Positions 5,241 to 59,774 of a stretch of 64,000 nt of DNA are shown in pieces. The notes beneath the pieces are model-generated. The model was not told the DNA's origin. It did no database searches and was given only the letters and a program-made list of their open reading frames with translations. Source of the DNA: Warburgia ugandensis. Lineage: Eukaryota; Streptophyta; Magnoliopsida; Canellales; Canellaceae. The DNA lies in assembly GCA_035236585.1 (NCBI GenBank), contig CP141127.1:63841495-63905494 (forward strand), read 5' to 3'. The translations under genes were made by a program, and so were the position numbers. The stretch's first letter is position 1. Each line of letters begins with the position of its first letter.

Positions 5241-5424
5241 CTCTATGTCTTGTATTATTTTAGAAACATAACTGGCTTTCCTTCCTTGATGGAATGTAAT
5301 TTAACTGCCTCTTCAAACTCATTATGATTGGTGAATTTCATGTCCATCTCAAACACAAGCATATTGTTCCCCACCCTTGGGTTATACTTTGGAAAGTCAT
5401 CTCTTTCATAAGCCATAATGTTCA

Positions 5425-5880
5425 CATCATCACTTGAATGAATCTTCTCATGTAATTTATCTTCAACTAAATATTCTTCCTCCTCTAACACTTTCTTTCC
5501 CTTATCTAAATTCATAGGTATATCCTTCTTTAATCCTAATAATTCTTGTTCATTCTCATCCCCTTTATATAACATCTCATCATCACTTGAATGAATCTTC
5601 TCATGTAATTTATCTTCAACTAAATATTCTTCCTCCTCTAACACTTTCTTTCCCTTATCTAAATTCATAGGTATATCCTTCTTTAATCCTAATAATTCTT
5701 GTTCATTCTCATTCCCTTTATATAACATCTCATCATCACTTGAATGAATCTTCTCATGTAATTTATCGTCAACTATATATTCTTCCTCCCTAACACTTTC
5801 TTCCCCTTAAATGAATATATATGTATATCCTTTTTTAATCCTAATAATTCTTGTTCATCCTCATTTCCTTTATATAACCT
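5425..5880 (-). repeat. Three-copy 153-bp (51-residue) in-frame tandem repeat
   Basis: The block starting CATCATCACTTGAATGAATC recurs at 5425, 5578 and 5731, giving an exact period of 153 bases. The first two copies are nearly identical, while the third has base changes, a small deletion and stops. On the minus strand each unit encodes an acidic, lysine-rich stretch including LLGLKKDIPMNLDKGKKVLE and EEEYLVEDKLHEKIH. It sits in the linker before the MuDR-type DNA-binding domain. Confidence 0.93.
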
Positions 5881-6484
5881 CTCATCAAAAGAATCTCAAT
5901 TATACTGATTGTCTGCAAAGCTAGAATATGAATAGTCATCCGCATCCATATCCACTACCTCGTTGCAATCCTCATCCCCAATCACTACCTCTTCTCTCTC
6001 TTTCCTATAATCTATTCCTTCACAATTTTTTACTACGTCACCTCTTACCTCCTCCCTTGGCTCTTGACAAACTTGTGATACTTGTGTGGCAAGAAAGCCA
6101 AGGCTCTAAGTCTCAATTTCTTCAACTAGGAAATTAGACATGTCACTACAAACCTCATCATCTTCAAGACTATCAATAAAAGTAGGTTTATGGCTTTCAA
6201 TTGCATGGACAATTTCTTCAACACCCACCATCCTCTCTTAGGTGTTACTTTACCCCTTGTATACTTATTGCACTTGAACCAACCCATCTTCTGAAACTTT
6301 TACATGGCATTCTATGATAGAAATTGGTGAACCCACTATAACCTACCACCTTTGTAGGTTGCATGGGTCTACTCTGGAATATATGTAAACTTTTCCTTAA
6401 AATGATGCCTGACGGTAAAAATACCATCACACCCATCTGAAAACATCCACAAATGAAACAAGATTCAAGGGGATAAAGTAACAC

Positions 6485-9245: not shown

Positions 9246-9434
9246 TAACCCCATAAAAGGGCATCCTAGCACACGAAGTTCCCGCATACGAAGAGTTTGG
9301 GGAAGGGGGATCACAAAGGTTCTACAATACATAACCTTACCTTGCATTTTTATAAGAGGCTGTTTCCATGCCTCGAATCCATGACCTCAAGGTCATACAA
9401 TGACAATTTTACCATTGCACCAAAGCTCCCCTTC
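9246..9434 (-). mobile_element. Au-type SINE, minus strand
   Basis: Shares the layout of the copy at 50558. Read on the minus strand, it has a tRNA-like head with a TTTGGTGCAATGGTAAAATTG box A region, a box B like GATTCGAGGCATGG, then GCCTCTTATAAAAATGCAAGG and a GGACC/CCCC tail region. It is flanked by AAACTATAT at 9237-9245 and 9435-9443. Au is a known tRNA-derived plant SINE family; the name rests on recall of its consensus. Confidence 0.85.
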
Positions 9435-9555
9435 AAACTATATGAATCCCATATCCAAAAAAATATAAACTATAGTAATCTTTGGGCCCATCTTGTATAG
9501 GCTATGGCCTAAAAATCTCATCCATTGTGTTGCATTCGTTGTTTAGAGTTGCAAA

Positions 9556-12097: not shown

Positions 12098-12270
12098 GGT
12101 AGCACCCGTGCACAAGTCTTTCCACTGACCTGTCTGGGGAAGGGGTGGACCACGGGTCTATTGTACGCAGTCTTATCTTGCATTTTTGCAAGAGGCTGTT
12201 TTCACGCTTTGAACCTATGACCTCAACGTCACACGACGACAACTTTACCATTGTGCCAAGGCTCCCCTTC
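12098..12270 (-). mobile_element. Au-type SINE, minus strand
   Basis: On the minus strand: GAGCCTTGGCACAATGG at the head, box-B-like GGTTCAAAGCGTG, then GCCTCTTGCAAAAATGCAAG and a GGTCCACCCCTTCCC stretch. Imperfect target duplications AAGC-GTGTCTG lie at 12086-12097 and 12271-12282. Inserted inside the Harbinger element. Confidence 0.82.
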
Positions 12271-12282
12271 AAGCAGTGTCTG

Positions 12283-13892
12283 TCTGGAAAAAATTGTTTG
12301 CAAGATCTGCAAGGCACATCCAATCGGTCAGTTAGTTTATCGACCACAGATGTGAAGCCTGAACTATAAATATCTATACAAACAACCAGCTTTGTGTCTT
12401 CCAATACGGCTTCCAATGGGAGTGTTTTCTCGTACATGAAAGCTACAATGGAAGCAACCGGATCAATAAGAAAGGAATAGAAGAGCGCCAGAGTTCCCAA
12501 TAGCAGAACCCGTATCTATAAGTCCAAGTTAACTACAATAATTGTCGTAAGAGCTAAAGAGCTCTATATTTGACTCTTATGGTGTCATTCAGGTCACAGT
12601 GTTGGTGAATGTCCTTTCTTCCTTCTGGTTGATTCAGTTAGGAGCTAATCATGGCTTCTGATTCTACTAAACACGAATCTGATTCCAAACTCTTACAGGA
12701 AAAGCGAATCTCATTGAATGTTCTAGTGATTTTGCTAGAGTCTCAAGCCAGATAAAAGAGAGCTATATAATGCCAGAATTGCATACTGTTGTTTGATTCA
12801 ACTGTGTAGCAATAAATTAAGAAAGAATAAACAACAAGCTTGTAGAGATTTTTGATAAAGGTCCATATGTATCCTTTTCCTTTCTCCTAGAGATGTGAAT
12901 ACTTTATAGCTGTCCTTGCCAGAAACAAGTCGTATAGATGAGTTTCATCTGTGGGCAAGCTCTGGTAATTTTTCAAGATGGCATATGAGATTTACACCTT
13001 GGGGCATACTTTTTTAAGGTCTAATGTTAGTGAGGCATATGGTTGATATAATTTCTAGATCCTTCCATGTTTGTCTTTAGATTCTTTGCAATCTGGGGGC
13101 TCCTTTCTGACTCAATTGACAGGGCCGAACTTCAATATGGTGTATGCAGTATCTGCTCTAAACTAAGCCCATTTATACTTCATCCTGATTTAGGGGACAA
13201 TTGCTATTGCATTTTTCTTACCAAGACTAAAATCAATTTGATATACTGTTCAGGTGATTCGTATTTAGGTGATCAATGACTCATTTTTCTGTCCAGACCA
13301 GACCAAACAAAGCTTCTCTCTTCGACTTGATAATGGACTTGGATAGAGTAGGCAGGTCTTCAGATGGCTTGACATTTGATCTCAACCTATTTCTTACTTC
13401 TTCTGGGTGTTTTTCCAAACATATGAATTGCCAGATTATTCTGTATTTGATGTTCTTCAATCTCTAACAGTCCTTCAATATATAAATAAAAATCAGTTGC
13501 AGTTTGCAATAAAATTAGTGATGGTCGTGTCATGTTAGAAATGAAGTTATCCTTCAGTAAATTTCAATTGTACGGAACAAGAGGAATTCTATATTCCATT
13601 ATAACAATCCACTTTCTCCCACAATCATTCCTAAATAGATTGGAGAAAGTAACATGCTATTCAATTATTGGAGGCTCCCGATCACATGAAAAGTAAATTT
13701 ACGTGGACTGCATGCTTTATGGGAGTCGCCGGTCATTGTGTAGACAAGGAACATTAATTTGAAACGAGCAATGCGCATTGCATTGTTTGTGGGATCAAAC
13801 ATTCTCAACCATTTGCTTTTGGATTGCTAGGGATAAAGGAATTCAAAGGAACTACAGCAAACGATGTCTGTTGAAATTGAAAATGCTCACAA
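12283..13892. other. Harbinger interior with no recognised gene
   Basis: Short frames and splice-like AG/GT signals occur (for example TTACAG before 12700), but I could not chain them into a coding model. The block around 12650-12780 (MASDSTKHESDSKLLQEKRI in one frame) is the most gene-like and stays unassigned. Confidence 0.3.
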
Positions 13893-13947
13893 AAATGTGG
13901 CATTTCATGAATCCTTCCACTACAAGTGAAGGTGCAAGATATGTGAT

Positions 13948-14382
13948 TGAGATGCTAGATTTTACAGATTTTGCAATCAGGATTGATTCAATCACACACA
14001 AAAGAAGCAAGGAGATTTACGTGGTTTGGTCAAACTCAGCCTACATCCATGGGAGAGGAAGATTCTACTATGATTTGATTAGATTACATGGATGAGGAGG
14101 AGGAGGAGGAGGCTTAAAGCCTCTTCTAGCCCTCCTCCCTTACTCTAATCACAAACTCTCTCACACCCACACACACCAAATCCTAACATCACATATATTT
14201 AGGATTTTCTTTACTTGAATATGGATGGACTCTTATTTGATTAATCTTTATTTTTATAATCCTTATCCTGATCAATCCTTATCCTGTTTGAACTTATCCT
14301 AATTGATACTTATCCTAATAGTTTTCTATTGTTGCCAGGTTTCCTCACATGGGTATGGATCATATAAGGGTTCACCCCAACA
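13948..14382 (-). repeat. 3' LTR of the copia-type element
   Basis: Parallels the right LTR: GCAATCA-GATTGATT, AAGAAGCAAGGAGATTTA, CTCAGCCTACATCCATGGGAG, ACATGGATGAGGAGGA, ACTCTAATCACAAACTCTC and a CCCCAACA terminus. It lacks the long CA expansion of its partner. Roughly one base in seven differs, so the pair is old. Confidence 0.85.
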
Positions 14383-15270
14383 ATCTCTCCCTCCATACCC
14401 ATAGGAGGAGGATGGACTTTGATTCAACTCTCCAAAATTACAAGTATGTTTTTCACCCAGCTCTCCCTTCTATAATTGTATGCGCCTTCCAGCAGCTCCA
14501 TAAAAAATTTGCACGTATTTGCAGCTTCTCCTAGAAGGGTTGCTACTACCCCTGCTCAACACTCTCTGCTGAGTTTAAGTGCTAATAAGTCATTGAGTGA
14601 ATCATAAGCATTTAGAAGCTTGCCGCATAAAAGCTTGCCACCTAGAAGCCTGTCAGTACTCCACACCTGTCCTCGTGGGCCGCCCTCGTTAGCTGCTCAT
14701 AAATATCACTTAGAATGGTCATATTCACTCGGATTGGTCACCGGGTTCGCTCAAAATGGTCATCGAGTCCACTCGAATCGCAGGCCCATTTTACCAAGTC
14801 ATCTCATCACTATTCACCGAGCCATCCCACCACTATTCACTGAGTTGTTCTACTACTGGTCCTGAGTCATCTTGCTAATGTTCTCAAGTTAGGACCACTC
14901 GTGGTTGCTGAGTCCACTCATAGTAGTTACTATGTACACTTTATGCACTTGTTCATCGAGTCAACTCCTAGTTGTTACTAAATCACTCACCAAGTGTCAC
15001 CAAATCAACTTACTAATATGGGTTTCCTAAGCAGGGGTGTCTAACCAATTTCATGAGATGTTAATTATGTTCCCTAGGGTGTACTTATCAAAATTAGGGT
15101 ATATAATTTTTTCATGAGAAGAGATGCCCAGGTCAATTTTTAGGGGTGCAAAACTCCCTCCCTCCCTCTGATCGGTGCTGTCTTACCGACGCACTTCCGC
15201 CTATTTACTTAGCCATCTTTCCTTCTTCACTCCACTACACTCAGGCGCTCCATCTTCGCCGTCAACGTCA
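14383..15270 (-). other. 3' internal region of the copia-type element, unassigned
   Basis: After the purine tract, the region holds imperfect short repeats around ACTCGA/GAGTC-ACT and CACTATTCAC (14700-14990). No protein family recognised on either strand. Confidence 0.4.
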
Positions 15271-15279
15271 CTTGACCAA

Positions 15280-15780
15280 CACATGACCACTGTCGTCCTC
15301 ACCCTCCGACAAAAATTCTTGTCATTGGTGTATCCTCCAACTTCTCTCCAATCACTGGGCATGTAGTATTTCCCATGGCAAGCCAATGTTCAATCTTTGC
15401 CTCATCAAATGTCTCTCCGTTCTCCATAATAACCAGGTTTCTCATCACTACCTTTGTAATGAGGCACTGAACAAACATGGGGAAAATCTAATCGGTGGCT
15501 GGATCTGGATCATACACATTGGAATCTGCCCAAGTGTTCTGAAAGAACACAAATTTATAGTAATTGATGAGATTGGTGACACTTAATGTTCTAATTATCT
15601 TCTTACACATTGAACTCCCATGCTTATTGAACTCTGTTCTAGCCTTTTGATCTCACTCATCTATCTTTCAAAACCCGCAACTTCCAATCTCTAAAAGATC
15701 TTCTCAATCCTATCTCTAGCAAGAAATACTTCATCTTAGACTTCCTTAGCCCACCGCAACAACAACAACACCATGATGGC
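15280..15780 (-). pseudogene. Captured fragment of a plant U-box (PUB) E3 ubiquitin ligase
   Basis: The clean part is a 59-residue minus-strand frame, 15478-15299. It contains CLITKVVMRNLVIMENGETF, AKIEHWL, GNTTCPV and GEKLEDTPMTRIF. This follows the U-box pattern C-P-[IL]-T-x-x-V-M-x-D-P-V then NGxTF, IxxWL, xTCPxxGxxLxxT, with the usual D-P replaced by N-L. Upstream on the same strand (15770-15620), broken frames read DEVFLARDRIEKIF, LEVAGF and MSEIKRLEQ, like the helical region that precedes the U-box in PUB proteins. U-box proteins recruit E2 enzymes to ubiquitinate substrates. This is a truncated, stop-containing fragment and cannot encode a working ligase. Confidence 0.68.
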
Positions 15781-15887
15781 CAGCAATGACATGTCATCCA
15801 TGGGCGCTTCTGAAATCAAGATACTACCAAGTAGATAATTAAGCCCATGAATTACATACATAAGAGAAGAAGCTGCTTTCAAGACTT

Positions 15888-16178
15888 TCATGGGATTTGA
15901 GGCTTCTTCGGGTTGCTATTGTGGTGCAATGAATCAGGACCCGATGGCACCTTCCTTAACTCCCAACAGACTACGTTTTCACCACCGAGAGCATCCGATG
16001 GTTTAATCCCTTGACCACCTCAGACGAACTCACCAGCAACTTTCTGCTCCGATATTCCATTGGAGTTGCCACTGCACAGAAGCAGTGATATCCGTTTCTA
16101 CAATCCGAAATTTCCTCCCTGATGAGAAACAAAAACCAGCACAACAAGAATAGAAAACACGGCAAATCGAAGTGCCAT
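15888..16178 (-). pseudogene. Captured CLE (CLAVATA3-type) signalling peptide precursor, broken
   Basis: From ATG at 16178-16176, the minus strand opens with a classic secretory signal, MALRFAVFSILVVLVFVSHQ. In the same frame, 97 codons total, the C-terminus carries ELRKVPSGPDSLHHNSNPKK and ends at TGA 15890-15888. The 12-residue core RKVPSGPDSLHH (15956-15921) is a CLE motif; the ELR-VPSGPDPLHH context and short tail are closest to CLAVATA3-type peptides, with the usual P at core position 9 replaced by S. Two in-frame stops (TAG, TGA) interrupt the middle. The best-looking middle sequence (SRKLLVSSSEVVKG) is in another frame, so either introns remain or shifts occurred. CLE peptides are secreted ligands of LRR receptor kinases that control meristems. 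The length matches the ~96 residues of known CLV3. It lies in sense inside the copia-type element. Confidence 0.78.
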
Positions 16179-16425
16179 CTTCCCTGTGCAGTCGATTTTG
16201 GAGAATCATTGATAGTCTGCAATAAAGAGAATGTGGATTGCACTCACCGCCGTAGCCTTCTATCTCTAGATCGCAGCCAATCAATGGTCACAACATCCTC
16301 TAGATCTACATCAAGTGCGTATCCAGTTATCATGCACATCTACCATCATTAATAGGCTTACTTCCACTAATGTGTTTAATGATCTCCATGAATAAACAAT
16401 GTATAGCCCTAAAATGCCTTTATTA
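16179..16425 (-). other. Leader between primer site and CLE fragment
   Basis: A 247-base stretch between the primer binding site and the CLE start codon. It shows splice-like signals (CGGTGAGTG and TTATTGCAG on the minus strand) and probably represents 5' flanking or untranslated sequence of the captured gene. Confidence 0.35.
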
Positions 16426-16437
16426 GCTCTAATACCA
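16426..16437 (-). promoter_or_regulatory. Primer binding site (initiator tRNA-Met type)
   Basis: The reverse complement is TGGTATTAGAGC, one change from the canonical TGGTATCAGAGC. It lies 3 bases from the LTR end at 16441. Confidence 0.75.
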
Positions 16438-16440
16438 CTT

Positions 16441-16680
16441 TGATATGCCATATTTTATAGATTTGGCAATCATGATCGATTTAGTTACACACACACATTA
16501 AAGAAGCAAGGAGATTTATGTAATTCGGCTAAACTCAGCCTACATCCATGGGAGAAAAGGATTCCACTATGATCTGATCAAATTACATGGATGAGGAGGA
16601 GAAGGCTTAGAACCTCCTTTAGCTCTCCTCCTTACTCTAATCACAAACTCTCTCACACCCTCACACACCAAATTCTAACA

Positions 16681-16756
<76 letters not shown>

Positions 16757-16897
16757 GATTTTCCTCACATGGATATGGATGGACACCTATCTAATTGATC
16801 CTTATCTTAATGATCCTTATCTTGATCAATCCTTATCCTATTTGAACTTATCTTGACATTTTTCTATTGTTACCAAGTATGCGAGTCTACCCCAACA
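16441..16897 (-). repeat. 5' LTR of the copia-type element
   Basis: On the minus strand it starts TGTTGGGGTAGACTCGC and ends GGCATATCA next to the primer site. It is expanded by a CA microsatellite relative to the other LTR. Confidence 0.85.
16682..16755. repeat. (CA)n microsatellite
   Basis: CA run of about 74 bases grown from a short CACACA tract that the partner LTR also has. Confidence 0.98.
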
Positions 16898-16951
16898 ATG
16901 TTTAGTATTTTCTCTTATTTAGAAATGTGGCATTTCATGAATCCTTCCACT

Positions 16952-17758
16952 GTAATTACTTTCAATAGGTCATTTAGATCTAGTTGCCCTATTCTTTCAG
17001 GATATATTGGTCAGGCATATCTATCAAACTCCATGAAATCCAAGTGGATAAGACTTCTTGACCTTTTCATGCTCAAACTTTAAGTCTTGTAGAAATTATT
17101 TGTACCTGACAGTAAAATGCAACTTCTTTGCAATAAAACTAGCACAACTGGAACAAATGATGAGTCAAATTACCTCGAGTGTACGTGAAATACCTCCATC
17201 TGCACGAATAATTGGAAATTTTTGCAAATAAAAATTTTAGAACACAAAAAGAAAGATTGATTATGCTACAAACAAAATCGTCCCTAGAAAGAGGCTGGCA
17301 GTAAATACACTTGTGGGGTCCAGCAGTTTGGTGATCCAAATCATCCATCTTTCGAGCCAATATTGTATAAATAATATTCCAGAGTCTCCTATATCAGAAA
17401 CAAAACTTCAATACTAGGAGATCTTTTATCTGTAGTTCTAAATTTCAGAATAGTCCATTTTATCTCTAGAAAATGAAAAGGAGATGAGTTTTTAGGTCAT
17501 GGCTATCTATAATGAGAACTAACAAATGATTATCACCATAGACAATTTTGTCCCCTCCTACTTCATGTGCATTAACTTTCAGTCTTTCTCTGTATTGTTA
17601 TATGTATTGTTAATCAAATTTGCCTCTAATCTATTATAACAAGTAGAAAGATTAGTAGCTGCATTGCTTTCAACTATACTCTTCTGATGCATTCTCTTAT
17701 TCGTATAATCTATTTGAGACCTTTTGATAGCTTAAATAGCAAATATATTTCTTTTTAG
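16952..17758. other. Harbinger interior upstream of the Myb-like gene
   Basis: AT-rich, with no domain recognised. Likely leader or intron of the transposon genes, ending at TTTTTAG just before the ATG at 17759. Confidence 0.35.
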
Positions 17759-26489: not shown

Positions 26490-29400
26490 TCACGAAATTG
26501 AATCAGCACGTTCGACCCTTTTAGGGATGGAAAGGTTGTCCCCAAGCATGAATGAAAGGTCAGGCATCTCTGACATCAACATTTCTACATTGGGATCAGC
26601 GGGTGCAAACTGACTAGTTGCAGAAGAAGCACCAGTGCTCCCGTCTACTGGGTTTTCAGATTTTACCTCCTGCATCCTGCATGCACAATGAAAACTGTGA
26701 GAATAACTGATGCATTGGAATACAAGCTCAACATTGAGCATATGCCATCCCCCATCAAGTACGTCACCTTGGTTTTTACAGTGAAAACTATTTCACTTCC
26801 CCCACACCCCCGACCCACATGCCAGGTTTATTGCGAGTTCAGAGTAATCTTGGATTCGAAATGCTACATCACACGTTAGTAAAAGAAGAAGAGCATAAAA
26901 GTAAAATTAAACTGACATCTATCTGGAGAAAAAGAACAGTTCAACTTCAGCTTCAGCATCAGCTCATTTAATGAACTCCACCAGAAAATAACCTTCAATG
27001 GGGAAAGGGGTATTTTTGCAAAAGAATGGCCTGCATAATTTGCTGAAGTAGCTATTTAAGACTAGCAACAACAATTTTAGCAGTAGATATATAGAATCAA
27101 ATACTGATAAATTAGCTATATCTTCATGACATTTTGATTTATGGTTTTGACCCAAATGGTTGAAGGTCTCAAAGTCTGACAAACCCAGTGAAAACATAAA
27201 GAAGCACTGGACAGTTCAGACTTAATACTAACAAACTGGCTCTTTGAGAATAAAATTAAGCATCCTGGAGCAGTCTTCCTACTTTCGGACTTCCATAGTT
27301 TCAGAGAGATGCTTACTTATCCAGACTTGAGAGAAGTCTTCAGTCCCACCAAATTGATGCACATAATGAAGTAGCAGCCTGATGTTTGAGCAACACTTGA
27401 TGTACTAGAAAAAAGTCGCAGCCCAATGTTTGAGCAACCACCACCTACCTTGATCGTAATGCAGGCCTCTCACCAACAAAAGGTAGTAGTTCCAAATTAA
27501 TAACATATACAAGACCTGTATGTTCACAGGCTTTTATGTTCTTCACTTCCTCCTGTAACTCCTAGGCTTTGAGCACAATTTCCAGAAGGTTTCCATTGAA
27601 CAGTCCTAGAGTGATCAGCATTGACATTATGTTAACTGAAAAGAAGACCTGAATTTAAGTTGATGCCTTTCAGTGCAGATATTCATCAATGCCTATTAGC
27701 ATTTCACTGGATTTATGAACAGTCAATCCATAAACTCTCCTTTTGTCAGGTCATTAGATAATGATTCTTCAATTCAAAACCAGATAAAAGAAACTGAAGC
27801 TCCCTCAGAGACGAGTAGATAAGTTCTCCAGATGCATTCTCAACCCACACAACTTATGACATATGTTTAGCTAAACATATAGCTTATGACTCTGAAGAAA
27901 TAGGGTTTATTGTCACCAGCAGAAAATGTTGCACCATTTTACCGATTTGAACTCTTACTTCCAAGATTCCAAAAAAGCAAGTTTTTTGAAGTTTAATCTC
28001 AATGGTTTAAATCCTTGCCATTTTCTTGAACCTTATATCACATCTTTTAAGGACTTCAGATGTTGTAAAAATATCAAACACCAATTGGCTCAAAGAGCTT
28101 AAGTATAAAATGCTATGTTGGGGGTCAACAAGGAGTTTCTCATCAGGGTGAGAAGGGTTCGAGACTGTGCATGGTGAATGGGTCTAACTTTCAAAATGTT
28201 CCTTGGATGCAATCCTTCTAACGAAGGCAAGTTGCAGCCACTGTATAAGGGATTGTTGAAATGAGAACCAATTATGGAAACCTAAGGTGCCACTTCAGTG
28301 CCTATGAGATACTTCTCAGTCTTTCTCAGAGATGACTGTAGCCTCACCCTCCAATTGCAAGACAATGTGAGAAATGGAATCCTCTTGCCTGATGATAATA
28401 CCCCATGAAGAAGAGTGATAAGCATATTTAACTTCATTAATAAAAGAAGAGAAACATACAACTGACCATTAACTAATATATGCGTTTCCCTCTCTTCAAT
28501 TTAAAACCCACTATATCAAGGATCTTGACAACGAAAATGGCAATCAAGATTATTCTAAACCTTCTGCCAATCTAGCTTCAAAAGCAAGCAACTTGTTTGC
28601 TCCTTCTGACAGTAAATCACCACTTAACAGCTATAATACTTTTACTATGATAACTCACAACTGGATAGGGGCCAAAAGTTACTCAATATAAAGAATAATA
28701 ACTTGGATAGATTTTACAGCATCACTCAAAAGACTAGTGGGTCTAAACACCTCCATGTACTTCTCACAGTAGAATAAGGAGATTTTCTTCTGTTGATGAG
28801 GAAATAGAACTCATCACACATCTAGAAATTCATGGAGAAAACCATCAGAGTCAAGCCCCGCATCACATCCTCTTGAAAAATAAAGCCGCTCAAATATCCT
28901 CTTTGGAGGAAAGGGACTCTGAAAATCTTAATCCAATGAGAAAGAAATAAAATTGAAAAGATCAACAATTTTATAAGAAAGAGAATTACCTATAAATCAA
29001 AAGCCTGAACTATCATTTAGATATAAAAGAAGAGCAAAACTATCTCGAGATGTTTTCTTCTATATCTCTGTTAGCTTTTAAATGAGTAACCAGAACCTGG
29101 AGCTTCTAAGTCATTCTTCCTTTCCATAATCATGGCAATTCCATGGACAGATTCTATTTGGAATCCTAGTAGCAGTGAAAATAATAACAGGGAAATAATA
29201 CAGACTCTCTGTCTGTTTTGGGGGCTCATAGACTCATATAAAGGGCAGCCCCAGTGCACAAAGCTCCCACCTATGCGGGTCTAGGGAAGGGTCGGACCAC
29301 AAGGGCCTAAAGTACACAGCCTTACCTTGCATTTTGTAAGAGGCTGTTTCCACGCCTTGAACCCATGACCTCAAGGTCACACGACAACAACTTTTACTGT

Positions 29401-32400
29401 TGCGCCAAGGCTCACTCATAGACTCATATATGCACTGCTTATTGCAGCGATCAGTTCTTCTCATTATTGAGCATAAATAGGTGTTATTCTCTGTATTTTC
29501 TGCAAGCTTGTTATCCTTCTTATCAGACTGATAGCAATACTTGCCTCTGTGTCTGAGCACAAGCTCCATGGAGGTGCTTGTTCTCTTATTGCTAAATGAT
29601 TTTCCCAAATGATAAGTAAGAATTCACTACAGGTGCACCCATTACAGCAATAAACATGGTTTGGCAATAAATTTCTCATATTACAGATCAAATGAAGAAA
29701 GACATTGTAGTAGTTAGTAGGTGGAAATATTAGAATATCTGCATCAGTGACCTTTCCAAGGAAAACCAAAATGCAGATTCTTTAAAAGCAAAAGTAAATC
29801 AAGTAGATGTGTATACAGACCTGTCCAGTGGGAAGGCATCCAACTGCATGAGATTCACACCAGTAGAACCTTTCTGAATGCTTGACGCTCCTGAACTGAC
29901 ATTTGGCTCAAAAACACTACCAAACTCCATTTCTTTTGAATTATCAGTTAAGCCTGAGGAAATATCTGCAGAAGCATGTCCATTGATAAGTGTATTACTG
30001 GTTGTAATTTGGGGCCAAGAATCTGAAAAAGGATCCACTGCATCTGCTGATCTGGCAAAATCTTGCCATACGTTCAATGAATCATCATTTTGAGTAGTTC
30101 TCTCAGTACTCTTAGACTGAGTTGTGCTACTAGTGTGCCAAAAATCATCTTCAATCCAGTCACCTGTAACAGATAAGGGATGCTTTGGAATACTCTTTGA
30201 CTCATCATCTTTACTGATCTCAAGTTGCTCTATGTTGCTTGATGCCTGTGCACTGGCAGTATGCCACAGATCATCTTTTGTCAAATTATGAGCCATGGAT
30301 AACATATCATCTGGGTTATCCTTCAACTGGCCATCAGCACCATGGCTCTCAATTTCAAATTTGCTATCAACACTTAGGTCAATAGCAGCAGCTTCAACAG
30401 GTGTAGCATGCTCGACTGCAGAAGACTCTGGAAAAAGATCAACTGAGTTTGTATTTCCTGGGAGATTTTCAGAACTGGCAGATTGGAACTCAGCCTCCCA
30501 AAGAGAAAAAGATTCACCAAACTGACCACCCGACATGTCTGTTGGGTTCAGTGACAAACATGAAGACTGAATGTTTAGAGAGATACCAACACTATCCTGA
30601 GAAGAAGGCAAATGACTATTCATATTTCTGATCTGTTCATCCGCTGTCAGTTGCGGCTCGGATACACTAGGAGCTGTCTTCAAATTTGCATCAGAGAAAA
30701 AGTTATCTAGATCAACTCCTGCCAAGTTTACAACAGGCTGACTGACAGTTGGCACCTTATTGTCACTGCTAGTCCCACTTTCTTCCAAATCCTCTGGCCA
30801 CCTTAATTTTAAATCTAACAGATCAGACAAGACCAATCCTTCTGATGATGCATTTTCAGTTCCAGTTGAATCACTTGCTTCATTGCCTAATGCAACAGTC
30901 TCCTGCAAAACAATACCATTTCTCTTCACATTTATAAAGGAAAGACTTTCAAGAAAAAGTAGTCTCATGTAAGTCATGTGGCGACGGAATAAGAACAGTA
31001 TGTCATCTGGTGACCGAGTAAGAACAGTATATGCATTTACTACCAAATTAATTAGGCATATTGCTAAGAAAAAAAATACTGGAACTGATTCATATTGTTA
31101 CCAGTTATATAATCAGCATGCAACTGTAGCAAATTATACATATACCACATATTTTGGACTGTAAGTTGTGTACTTGTCTCCCACCTGTTTAGTGATATTG
31201 TGCCCTCTAAAGTACCAGATGATGCAATGGAGTTCTTCTGTAAGTCACTGTCTCACTCGTGTATCTCTACATTAAACTGTACAACCTGTTCCCTTACAGT
31301 GAATCTCTAAAATTAATATTTCCAGCTTCGAATGCAAATCTTATTACAGGTGGCACAAATTTTTGCAGTACGCTTTCATGAATGATCTCTTGGGTTGCAT
31401 GTTGGGGAAAACATATCTTAGAGATTTGTTGCTATTAATTTTTTCCATTTTTAATCCCATAACTGCTTCATACCACCGAACTTCTCCACAAGATTCACCA
31501 TCCATGAGGAACTCTGAGATACTAGTAAAGCAGCTCCAGTAACAGGAGTATATCTGGAAATAAGCCCCAAATCCAGCCTTCAAACAAATTCAGGAACAGG
31601 TGAACATAAGATAGAGGTCTCTGTGTCATGTAAAAGTGATACCTCCAGACTCCCTAACAGACCTCACTTGCTTGGACTCCAACTTATGCTTTCTATAGGC
31701 TCTAATCTGCAGCTGTTGTCAGTGGACGTACTCTGCAATATCATTCAGCACGACAAAGATGCTGCCATGTATACGGGGTCCAGGGAAGAGGTAGACCACA
31801 AAGGGTCTAAAGTATGCAGCCTTGCCTTGCATTTTTGCAAGACGCTGTTTCTGCGCTTGGAACCCATGACCTGCAGGTCACACTACGACAACTCCAACAT
31901 TGTGCCAAGGCTCCCCTTCATTCAGCGTGGCAGAAGTTCAAAAATTCCCTAACTATAAAATCTAATTCTCAACTATCAAAACAAATCCATAACCGTACAG
32001 TGAAATAAATGTGAACATGTCTGAATATGGTTTGATGGATATTTTACCAGACAAGCAAATGCGACATTGACAGGCAATCCTTACCAGACAGGCATATACA
32101 GCATTTTTAGGGATAATCATGATGTCATGGTAATCTACATAGCTGTTTCTGCAGATCAAGCAAGCAAATCAACTTTAAACAACTGAAAGGAACAGTTCTT
32201 TTGACTAGTCTTCACATACATACAATGTTTGGAGATGAAACAGTGGTTGGACGGGATTTGTCCTAAGTCATTGGCTGGGCAGACAATTCTTCTCCAGGTC
32301 ACTGGCAGAATTGTACAAATCACTGATTTTACACATAGCAGCTTCCAGTTAATTTTATTCAATCACATTCCATATGGTGCTAATGAAATTGCCAACTCCT

Positions 32401-33384
32401 TTCCTAGCGAAGGATTTCATAGCTAAGCAAGTATGAGTTCTGTGACCCATCCTGTCTAAATGCTCAAGTTATCAATATTAATTACAAATTCAAATCTCAC
32501 TGTTCTTAGAGTTTCAGAAAACAGGTCAGAATTGATAGTTACAAAAGTGTCAAATTTTCTTTGAAAAAGTCCTGACTTTTTCCTCTCCCTACACAAATAA
32601 TTTAAAAATTTTTCACAAAATTTAAATTCAATGGAAATTTACAATTAAAAACGAACGCATTATATTAAACACAAATTTATGAACCAAATTGTCAAATTTT
32701 CGACTACTATTTATAAATCTAGTTAGAAATAAAACTCGCATCCTAATCATGCTCTTTTCTCAATCCTTCTATGAAGGTTTCCCGATTTTTTAAACAGTTG
32801 ACTTACCAACTTATTCCCCAACTTGAACAATGCAATTATGCTGAATATAATAAACATAGAGACGTCCACTACTCTGCGATTATTCCTACAAACTACATTC
32901 TGCTTGCACATCGCCATTTATCCTTTCAAAACCCGAGTAAAAACAAGTAAATAATAAATATTCCACGTCCAAGCAAACAGAAATTCTAAAAATCATTTCT
33001 AACATTAAAAGGTTCGCTTTTCCTATCATTTCTCAGCATACAAAAACGCACCGATCCATCTACTTGCAGAGATTCTAGTAGCTTCCGATAGGCAAAAGTC
33101 ATATTGAAAGAGATCGACGGTGGAGGAACATCCCTCCGCTGTTCCGCCCCACAATAAACGCAGATTGTAGACTGCAAACCTCTGAGAAGCCTTCCCCGGC
33201 ATTGTTTGCATCTGAGATAAGGAGGCGATGGATCGAACTCTGCGATTGTTTCTTCGAGCGTGGGAATACGTTGGAGCGAAGGATCGTCGGGATCGTATGA
33301 AGAAATACCGGCTTCTTTACGGAGCCCTTTCTGGATTGATTTGAGGAGAGAAGATGGAAAGTCTACTGGGAATTCAATCGCCAT
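26490..33384 (-). CDS. Three-exon gene for a plant zinc-ribbon protein of unknown function (533 aa)
   Basis: Exons on the minus strand are 33384-33052 (111 codons), 30902-29821 (360 codons plus 2 bases) and 26676-26490. Splice signals are TCG|GTGCGT to TTTTGCAG|GAG (phase 0) and GACAG|GTCTGT to CATGCAG|GATG (phase 2, restoring Arg472). The frame is then open to TGA. Residues 59-78 form a zinc ribbon, C59-x2-C62-x12-C75-x2-C78. The N-terminus (MAIEFPVDFPSSLLKSIQKG) is preceded by no longer in-frame start. The middle is acidic and Ser-rich, with SDLLDLKLRW (137-146), LAGVDLDNFF (171-180) and two copies of DD-[LF]-WHT (321-326, 363-368). The C-terminus has MPDLSFML. This layout resembles plant proteins annotated as dentin sialophosphoprotein-related; no biochemical role is known to me. 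Both introns contain Au SINEs. The coding frames are intact, so the gene is probably active. Confidence 0.85.
26677..29820 (-). other. Intron 2 of the zinc-ribbon gene (3.1 kb)
   Basis: Bounded by GT at 29820-29819 and AG at 26678-26677 on the minus strand, joining phase-2 exons. AT-rich, with an Au SINE at 29241-29414. No further exon was convincing within it. Confidence 0.75.
29241..29414 (-). mobile_element. Au-type SINE in intron 2
   Basis: Flanked by perfect 16-bp duplications CTCATAGACTCATATA at 29225-29240 and 29415-29430. On the minus strand it shows GAGCCTTGGCGCAACAG, GGGTTCAAGGCGTGG, ACAGCCTCTTAC and GGTCCGACCCTTCCC. Confidence 0.93.
30903..33051 (-). other. Intron 1 of the zinc-ribbon gene (2.1 kb)
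   Basis: Minus-strand donor GTGCGT at 33051 and acceptor TTTTGCAG ending at 30903, phase 0. The joined reading ...LLESLQVDGS|ETVALGNEAS... is open. Contains the SINE at 31750-31918. Small frames inside (31344-31583, 32986-33051 read-through) are not supported as exons. Confidence 0.7.
31750..31918 (-). mobile_element. Au-type SINE in intron 1
   Basis: Flanked by CATTCAGC at 31742-31749 and 31919-31926. The minus-strand body has GGGAGCCTTGGCACAATG, GGGTTCCAAGCGC, GCAAAAATGCAAGGCAAGGC and GGTCTACCTCTTCCC. Confidence 0.88.
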
Positions 33385-33646
33385 TGCAGCTAGAATTTCT
33401 GCATTAGGTTTGAGATACTTTTCTTACTTCTTTATTTTCTGGTTCGAATTCGCTGGCCTTCTACCTCGGCTGAAGGAGAACGCAATCCCTCACACGATTT
33501 CCCGACTGCGGATCTTGTCTTTTAAAATGTGGGTATTACGGAAAGTAATTTTGACAATTCCACATGCGTCGTGTGTGCCTTGCGTTCTCCTGGCAGCTCT
33601 TCCAAGTTAAGAATACACGTTTGATGCTCGGGATGCGACCTTTTAC

Positions 33647-50540: not shown

Positions 50541-50557
50541 TAAGTTTGGCTCCTAAT

Positions 50558-50741
50558 TGAAGGGTAGCCTTGGTGTAATGGTAAAGTTGTCATCCTGTGG
50601 CCCTGAGGTCATGGGTTCAAGGCATGGAAATTGCCTCTTATAAAAATGCAAGGTAAGGTCGCGTACTATAAACCTTGATGGTCCTCCCCTATCTCGGACC
50701 CCACATATGTAGGAGCTTACTGCACTGAGGTGGCCCCTTTT
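50558..50741 (+). mobile_element. Au-type SINE, plus strand, with 17-bp target duplications
   Basis: TAAGTTTGG-TCCTAAT flanks both sides (50541-50557, 50742-50758; one C/T difference). The body has box A GCCTTGGTGTAATGGTAAAG, box B GGGTTCAAGGCATGG, then TGCCTCTTATAAAAATGCAA, TCGGACCCCACATATG and a short T tail. tRNA-like internal promoter boxes and A/T-poor body match the Au SINE family. Confidence 0.93.
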
Positions 50742-57289: not shown

Positions 57290-58790
57290 ATCCTTTGTTG
57301 AGCCTCCTAAGGTTGAACTAAAATCTCTACTATTAGATTTAAAGTATGCATATTTTAGGAGAAACAAAGACTTTTCTTATGATAATTTTCTCCCAATTAG
57401 AAACATCTTAGGATGAACAGTTAATAGACACAATAAAGGAACACAAAGGTGCTATAGGATGGATCATTCCACATACAAAGGTCATTAACCCTTTAATCTA
57501 TACTCATAGGATTTACTTGGAGGATAATACCAAATTATGTCATTAATTGTACCACAAATTGAACCCTAATATGCAAGAGATGGTTAGAGTAGAAATCTCT
57601 ACATTGCTTATTGTATGGATCATCTATCTCATAAGTGATAGCAAATGAGTGAGTCCAACTCAAATGGTTATAAAGATATCAAAGTGTCAATGATGACAAA
57701 TGCCAACAATGAATTAAGTCCTACTAAAGTTAGCACATGTTGGCATATGTGCGTTGACTTTAGAAAATCGAATAATGTCACTAGGAAGGACCATTTTCCT
57801 TTGTCTTTATTAATCATATGTTAGAAAGGGTTTTAAGACATTAGTTTTACTATTTTCTCTATGGTTATTATGGATATAACCAAACAAAGATTGCATCTAA
57901 GGATAAAAAAAGATCACTTTTACTTATAAAAGAATGCCATTTGGACTATGTAATGGTCTTGCCACTTTTCATAGATGCATGATAAGTATCTCTAGTGATA
58001 ATGTAGAGAAATTTTAAGAGGTCTTTATGGATGATTTTTCTATTTTAGGTGATTCATTTGAAACATGTCTTGAAAACTTATGAAAAGTCTTATATCATTG
58101 TGAAGAGAAAAACTTAGTGTTGAATTAGGAGAAATGTCATTTTATGGTTTCCAAGGGAATTGTATTTGGTCAGATATTCCATCCAAAGGTATAGAGGTAT
58201 ATTAAGCCAAAATTGATTTGATCATTAATCTACCAATTCCTAAATTAGTGAGGGATATCCACTCATTTCTAGGACATGCATTATTCTACAAGAGGTTTAT
58301 TGAATATTTTAATGTAATATCAAGATCTTTATGTCACCTCTTTATAAAGGATGCCCCTTTTAAGTGGACTAATGATTGTCAGGAAGCTTTTACAAAGTTG
58401 AAACATGAGTTAACCATTGCATCTATCATGCATCCACCTGATTGGAGTTTTCCCTTTGAAATCATGTGTCATGGTAATGATTATGCTATAGGAGTGGGTA
58501 GGACACTCAATAGTACTCATTTGAACTATTCTACCACAAAAAAGAACTGCTCCTTGATGTTGTATTTGCATTGGATAAGTTCAGGTCCTATTTGGTTGGT
58601 TCTAAGATAGTTATTTTCTTGAGCATTCAGCACTTAAGTACATTCTTTCCCAGAAGGATGCTAAGCTAATACTATTTAGATGGATTTTTCTACTCCAAAA
58701 ATTGGATATTGAAATTAAATACAAGAAAGAAGTAGAAAATATAGTTGCAGATGATCTTTATCTTTCTAGACTTGTTGGATGAGTTTCTAA
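57290..58790 (+). pseudogene. Reverse transcriptase and RNase H remnant of the gypsy element
   Basis: Recognisable pieces in order are VELKSLLLDLKYAYF (57310), KDHFPLSLL-like GRTIFLCL in a shifted frame (57785), RMPFGLCNGLATFHRCM (57935-57985), VFMDDFSILGDSFETCLENL (58020-58080), EKNLVLN-EKCHFMV (58105-58150), VRDIHSFLGHALFYKRFIEY (58248-58310), FEIMCHGNDYAIGVG (58458-58500) and IEIKYKKEVENIVADDLYLS (58710-58765). F-M-D-D is the RT active-site box and is intact. The final RNase H AD-x-L-S motif shows an inserted residue. In-frame stops are many. The element's RT would copy its RNA to DNA. Confidence 0.85.
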
Positions 58791-58799
58791 TAAAGGATA

Positions 58800-59774
58800 A
58801 ATTCTTGAATGATTAACTGTTCATGTCTCTCATGCTCCATGGATTGTTGATATTGCAAATTATTTAGTTACACGAACGATACTTGAACATTGGATTAAGC
58901 AAGTAAAGCACTCCTTCTGGGATGATCCTAATTTATTTAAGTACTACCATCAAATAATTAGGAGATGTATACTTGATATAGAACCATCAAATAATCCTCA
59001 TTTGACATTCTGAAGCATGTGGAGGACATTTTTTTGCTCAAAGAACTACTACAAAAATTTTGCAGTGTGGTTTTTATTGGCCCACTCTTTGTAAAGATAC
59101 ACATGACTTTTGTAAAGCTTATGAGCATTTTCAAAAATTAGGAGGAACAACTTGTAGGAATATCATGTATCTGAATCCAATTATAGTGGTTGAGGTATTT
59201 GATTATTGGGGGACTAATTTCATGGGACCATTTCCACCTTTATTTGTATGTCTGTATGTTTTAGTATCTATAGACTATGTTTTTAAATGGATAGAGGCTG
59301 TTCTATTTAGGAACAATAATCATAAAATAGTTTGTAAATTTCAAAAAGAAAATATCTTTTCTAGATTTGTGCCTTGAGTCATTATAAGTGATAATAGTAT
59401 TCATTTTTTTCAACAGGGCTTTTGAAACACTCATGGATAAATATAATATGAAAAATAAAGTTGTAACAATGTATCACTCATAAATAAGTAGACAAATAAA
59501 AAATTCTAATTGGGTTATTAAATAGATTCTTCAAAAGATTGTTAACATAGATCATAAAGATTGGTCTCTTTGACTGAACGATGCACTTTGGGCATACAAG
59601 ACTACATATAAACCCCGAATTGGTATGTCTCCCTATCATATTGTACATGGTAAAGTTTGTCATTTGCTTATGGAATTGGAAGATAAAGCTTATTAGGAAA
59701 TTAAAACAAATTAATTTTAACATGCTTAAGTAGGCTCACATAGAAAAGAAATTAGGCAAAAAGCATATGAAAGT
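58800..59774 (+). pseudogene. Integrase remnant of the gypsy element
   Basis: Frame 59060-59377 reads QCGFYWPTLCKDTHDFCKAY, then DYWGTNFMGPFPP, LVSIDYVFKWIEAV and ending FSRFVP, continued by VIISDNSIHFF. This covers the zinc-binding region and catalytic core (D of DYWG, D of ISDN). The downstream part is shifted. The C-terminus runs into the inverted LTR fragment. Confidence 0.82.

Follow-up and report, generated by a model that had tools for sequence, protein, structure and literature searches.

A relic of a CLV3-like CLE precursor, probably captured by an old LTR retrotransposon in Warburgia ugandensis

The analysed window, a stretch of 64,000 nucleotides from Warburgia ugandensis, contains on its minus strand the relic of a CLV3-like CLE precursor between a pair of LTRs. 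We consider it likely that the surrounding unit is an old non-autonomous LTR retrotransposon which captured this CLE frame along with part of a U-box E3-ligase gene, the two pieces being in sense orientation. The CLE piece was probably copied from an mRNA. The first-pass annotation had read the locus as a CLE relic in sense orientation inside a copia-type LTR element; the relic, its orientation and the LTR element are retained here, the copia label is not.

Reading frame and motif of the CLE relic

The CLE relic comprises the following features:

15888-16178, minus strand: CLE precursor relic with a CLV3-like motif and internal stops at 16098-16100 and 16020-16022 (motif profile and hydropathy)
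16119-16178, minus strand: secretory signal-like N-terminal segment, MALRFAVFSILVVLVFVSHQ (hydropathy test)
15921-15956, minus strand: CLE dodecapeptide motif, RKVPSGPDSLHH (34.7 bits on a profile of 72 distinct motifs)

Translation of 15888-16178 confirmed the coordinates and the minus-strand frame given in the first-pass annotation. The frame runs from a methionine to a stop codon, and its translation starts with MALRFAVFSILVVLVFVSHQ and ends with WELRKVPSGPDSLHHNSNPKKPQIP. It contains 96 codons ahead of the final stop, two of which are stops themselves. The openness of the frame was rejected as evidence for a CLE gene: one other frame on the minus strand and one on the plus strand of the same stretch also contain two stops.

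The motif was scored with a CLE profile of 72 distinct motifs. These were derived from 102 motifs, 50 from poplar (PMC4776436) and 52 from tomato (PMC9670457), listed in the parts of the two papers that were available; redundant motifs were removed, and so were the first of the 13 residues given for poplar and the 13th residue shown in brackets for tomato. RKVPSGPDSLHH reached 34.7 bits, and the runner-up among the 12-mers in all six frames of the window scored 5.6 bits. The best score in 60 simulated windows, which were first-order Markov sequences and not exact shuffles, was 18.1 bits (mean 7.48, sd 2.95). When each real motif was left out of the profile in turn, 42 of the 72 scored below RKVPSGPDSLHH, which places it inside the range of the family. 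A CLE motif near the C-terminus, as described at first pass, is supported by the profile.

Among the 102 listed motifs, that of PtCLE25 comes closest, with 10 of the 12 residues in common with RKVPSGPDSLHH; in both cases the motif is preceded by a leucine. PtCLE25, PtCLE4 and PtCLE17 were assigned to the AtCLV3 group by the authors of PMC4776436, in the available part of their text. The CLV3-class assignment of the relic is a motif comparison with the 102 listed motifs and not a whole-protein tree. Position 9 of the motif is serine in the relic; the listed motifs have proline (95), alanine (4), serine (2) or histidine (1) at this position. Proline at position 9 has been reported, in the same part of PMC4776436, to be critical for AtCLV3.

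The hydropathy test asked for an open 24-mer at least as hydrophobic as that of the CLE frame, with a basic residue near its start. Among the 3098 ATG positions on both strands of the window a single one passed, namely the start of the CLE frame itself, in agreement with the secretory signal that had been proposed for this end. Taken together, the predicted signal segment and the CLE motif are far above chance expectation.

Database searches were less informative. No Pfam family matched the CLE frame at E 1. A phmmer search of the PDB returned six matches with E-values from 0.13 to 1.3, none of them a CLE protein; all are named as variants of sc-apCC-4, which we take to be designed proteins. 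A search of a protein collection gave one candidate and no match at E 10, as would suit a collection poor in plants. In viral contigs six stretches matched the pattern used for CLE relatives, and none of them was confirmed. Judged by motif and predicted signal, we regard the CLE assignment of 15888-16178 as sound despite the silence of Pfam.

Internal stops and possible splicing

Two in-frame stops separate the predicted signal from the motif, and there is no methionine between the second stop and the motif. For these reasons no ligand is to be expected from the copy. It probably makes none today, and a new ligand derived from it, as had been suggested, appears unlikely. The copy is probably a gene relic and not a working member of the family.

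The gene could still be functional if the stops were spliced out, perhaps on a three-exon plan like that of CLV3, a reading we consider extremely unlikely. On paper, five single GT-AG introns of at least 60 nt open the frame. All five, however, cut inside the 20-residue signal, the mildest of them after residue 16. They use one common acceptor, which lacks a pyrimidine tract, and are not enriched in AT (0.52-0.54, compared with 0.53 for the whole CLE frame). Pairs of introns offer more combinations. With each intron at least 40 nt long, the frame is opened by 139 pairs, of which 10 leave the 20-residue signal whole, whereas at a minimum of 60 nt none of the 58 pairs that open the frame does so. 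Six of the ten signal-keeping pairs were detailed: their introns are 55-74 nt long, the first begins just after the signal, and the second ends just before, or within, the stretch preceding the CLE motif. An intron below 60 nt that is not rich in AT is unlikely in a plant. Rescue of the frame by splicing would need weak, very short introns or partial loss of the signal, and was rejected as not credible, with a small chance left for a three-exon gene. The earlier description of the copy as a probable relic with two stops is therefore upheld: both stops are present and are not credibly spliced out.

The LTR element

The element and its structural parts are located as follows:

13948-16897, minus strand: non-autonomous LTR retrotransposon, 2,950 bp, with ends at TG...CA (LTR alignment, primer site, purine tract)
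16441-16897, minus strand: 5' LTR, 457 bp (alignment to the 3' LTR; TG...CA ends)
16426-16437, minus strand: primer binding site, TGGTATTAGAGC (one mismatch to TGGTATCAGAGC)
14384-14394, minus strand: polypurine tract, GGAGGGAGAGA (11-base purine run one base before the 3' LTR)
13948-14382, minus strand: 3' LTR, 435 bp (alignment to the 5' LTR; TG...CA ends)

The paired LTRs with their TG...CA ends lie on the same strand (minus), 2,058 bp apart. The primer site is found at the inner edge of one LTR and the purine tract at that of the other, again on the same strand, and the CLE relic is sense-oriented between them. This is the order and strand that the first-pass annotation had described. Counted inwards from the 5' LTR, TGGTATTAGAGC begins three bases beyond its inner end, and no other match to TGGTATCAGAGC with at most one mismatch occurs on either strand of the window. 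We take TGGTATCAGAGC to be a primer site of the initiator tRNA-Met type. Purine runs of at least 11 bases occur 69 times on the minus strand of the window, so that the purine tract is backed by its placement and not by its rarity.

An alignment of the two LTRs resulted in 84.5% identity over 393 columns, with 49 transitions and 12 transversions (K2P 0.18) and an exact run of 31 bp common to both. If a rate of 6.5e-9 or 1.3e-8 per site and year is assumed, the LTR pair would be 13.8 or 6.9 million years old, respectively. Only the 5' LTR has a pure CA/TG microsatellite of 74 bp (16682-16755), to which a few degenerate units correspond in the 3' LTR.

A Pfam search of the internal region (14390-16440, six frames, stops as X) at E 1 found no gag, protease, integrase or reverse transcriptase, the only domain being a U-box. 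The name 'copia-type' had to be dropped, as no pol domain was found and the name rests on end sequences only. At gathering scores the window gave no Rfam match, and the LTR patterns occurred neither in viral contigs nor in bacterial and archaeal genome contigs (0 in each). Most of the 3' internal part (14386-15304, GC 0.45) is without a match to any domain, which counts against capture. Imperfect short tandem repeats are found in the 3' internal part at 14613-14649 (15-bp unit) and 14793-14844 (23-bp unit).

A second host-gene piece

The U-box domain belongs to a further piece of host origin, which is an addition to the first-pass annotation:

15305-15800, minus strand: second host-gene piece, U-box E3-ligase fragment, core at 15335-15475 (Pfam and PDB)

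The Pfam match is to a partial domain (E 0.017, 15.7 bits) and lies under the gathering score of 21.4 bits. Four PDB sequences matched the piece, with E-values from 5.7e-6 to 1.3e-5: two carry the name U-box domain-containing protein 12, one is a RING-type E3 and one an armadillo repeat protein. The latter two are presumably plant U-box proteins as well. The core is located approximately 0.4 kb downstream of the CLE stop on the same sense strand. Upstream of the core, as far as approximately 15800, further frames interrupted by stops and a shift of frame may be part of this gene as well. Within the piece there is a T-rich run whose last bases are CAG, at 15539; the frame stays open through it. 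This run could be the end of an intron, in which case the U-box piece would stem from DNA or unspliced RNA.

Flanks of the element

No 5-bp target-site duplication was observed at the LTR ends: the 5' flank reads AACAT and the 3' flank ATCAC, and three of the five positions agree. This absence, also an addition to the first-pass annotation, slightly weakens the filing of the unit as an LTR element; decayed ends or recombination could account for it.

Together with the modest identity of the LTRs, the missing duplication could also mean that the CLE and U-box pieces represent normal pseudogenes of the host and that two separate, internally deleted insertions of a single LTR family flank them by chance. 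A divergence of 15.5% between the LTRs would suit two different insertions as well. Several features nevertheless make such an arrangement unlikely. The inner edges of the two LTRs, 2,058 bp apart, are a primer site and a purine tract on the same strand, and blastn of 13801-17100 against the window (E 1e-3) found no further LTR copy and no second copy of the element. Two unrelated gene pieces between the LTRs, both in sense, would moreover require additional coincidences. Capture is favored over chance nesting because two host-gene pieces are sense-oriented inside one element.

Outside both LTRs we observed a perfect direct repeat:

13893-13921: 29-bp direct repeat, left copy, 26 bp outside the 3' LTR
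16923-16951: 29-bp direct repeat, right copy, 25 bp outside the 5' LTR

The two copies are identical. No other copy exists in the window at up to three mismatches, and none appeared in 100 shuffles. One possible source of the repeat is a later insertion of the repair type, which would have brought in the old element together with short flanks and left this duplication. Dating it as younger than the LTRs because it is perfect was rejected, since 31 consecutive bases are identical between the two LTRs as well.

As this repeat encloses the whole unit, it points to other events at the site, and one may ask whether the CLE piece landed, as a retrocopy or as filler, in a dead LTR element that was already inserted, and never travelled. 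The presence of a single copy fits this as well as it fits capture. On the other hand, no poly-A tract follows the CLE frame, and the two pieces in sense orientation favor capture. A direct repeat around the CLE piece by itself would, if shorter than approximately 25 bp, have escaped the self-comparison of the window. We regard a later landing as improbable.

Proposed origin of the CLE copy

Based on these features we propose that capture took place as follows. The ancestral element would have been under reverse transcription in its particle, where the enzyme would have switched template to packaged host RNAs. The resulting chimera would have kept its LTRs, primer site and purine tract and could consequently have been moved by the proteins of an autonomous relative. 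After insertion the element would no longer have been conserved; its LTRs would have decayed mostly by transitions and the CLE frame would have gained its two stops. An mRNA template, this mode of capture, past mobility and the absence of a product are what we infer for the CLE copy.

The mRNA template is supported by a comparison of gene structures. In Arabidopsis and pennycress, CLV3 and CLE40 each contain two introns, according to the available part of PMC10436580, whereas the relic has one frame from its methionine through the motif, with two stops. Taken for itself, the continuous frame is suggestive and constitutes weak evidence, because many CLE genes have no intron. The ten intron pairs that open the frame and keep the signal also count against an mRNA template, as they leave a small chance that the relic retains introns. 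Introns were reported for only 13 of the 50 poplar CLE genes in the accessible text of PMC4776436, and from partial sources most Arabidopsis CLE genes have a single exon. For tomato, two such sources differ, one describing introns in CLE genes as rare and an older survey giving 7 of 15.

Surroundings in the window

A Pfam scan of the surroundings covered ten chosen stretches. On the minus strand, 32986-33423 contains a DUF7815 domain (E 1.6e-16) and is probably a host-gene exon, and 29799-31097 is an open frame of 432 codons that matched no family in Pfam at E 0.1 and may represent a large host-gene exon. An RT_RNaseH_2 domain (E 2.2e-8) at 58206-59400 on the plus strand marks the remnant of another retroelement. 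At 5422-5887 a 153-bp unit is repeated in tandem about three times, with 90-95% similarity between the copies, and overlaps an open frame of 183 codons on the minus strand; the Pfam matches here were weak and below the cut-off, the best being DUF5338 (E 1.9e-4). A dispersed repeat of approximately 100-180 bp is present in five copies that are 75-87% alike (9252-9436, 12132-12272, 29235-29413, 31775-31920 and 50557-50740). It resembles, in our view, a tRNA-derived SINE of the Au type.

Implications

If the capture is real, the precursor of a developmental peptide hormone joins the known cargo of plant LTR elements. The copy looks dead and thus marks a past capture, not a function. CLE precursors are short, so a whole frame may fit into one capture, which would make these genes candidates for retrotransposon-borne spread. 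Captured CLE frames may also be prone to misannotation as extra members of the family.

A more far-reaching scenario has, in our estimate, a very small chance of being correct. The element may have spread its CLE cargo while the frame was intact, sister copies may make an LTR-driven CLE ligand or small RNAs that silence the donor, and the retrotransposon family may thereby tune meristem size.

Comparison with known systems

TRIMs and LARDs are non-autonomous plant LTR elements which possess LTRs, a primer site and a purine tract and are devoid of gag and pol. The Warburgia element is unlike them in its length of 2.95 kb combined with host cargo.

With respect to its cargo, the relic resembles PtCLE25 of poplar (PMC4776436, available part) in 10 of 12 motif residues, in the preceding leucine and in length (96 versus 100 amino acids). 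It is unlike PtCLE4, PtCLE17 and PtCLE25, as described there, in its two stops and in having serine instead of proline at position 9.

A survey of three grasses counted the host genes captured by LTR elements: 672 for rice, where many of them are pseudogenes, 1,343 for sorghum and 424 for maize (PMC3726574, in the part accessible). As in Warburgia, a host gene lies within an LTR element equipped with primer site and purine tract. The grass captures in the accessible part of that study were surveyed in full-length elements, whereas here there is one old copy. The same part reports unique small RNAs on 85 captured genes of rice and 812 of sorghum. By analogy, the small-RNA effects proposed for the CLE copy at first pass would have a loose precedent in these genes.

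For maize, the available text of a review (PMC13317346) describes Bs1, an LTR retroelement with three captured host-gene segments. The cargo of Bs1 consists of H+-ATPase, xylan endohydrolase and glucanase segments, in contrast to CLE and U-box pieces here, and its chimera is transcribed and translated, whereas the Warburgia element is known from sequence alone. The two are alike in carrying more than one captured host-gene piece in an LTR element. The literature drawn on, in part, also includes PMC4195864 and PMC7552357; the portion of the literature searched, which contained few subscription papers, yielded no published example of a transposon with a captured CLE gene. Gene capture by plant LTR elements is already well documented, and a CLE precursor is an unusual cargo.
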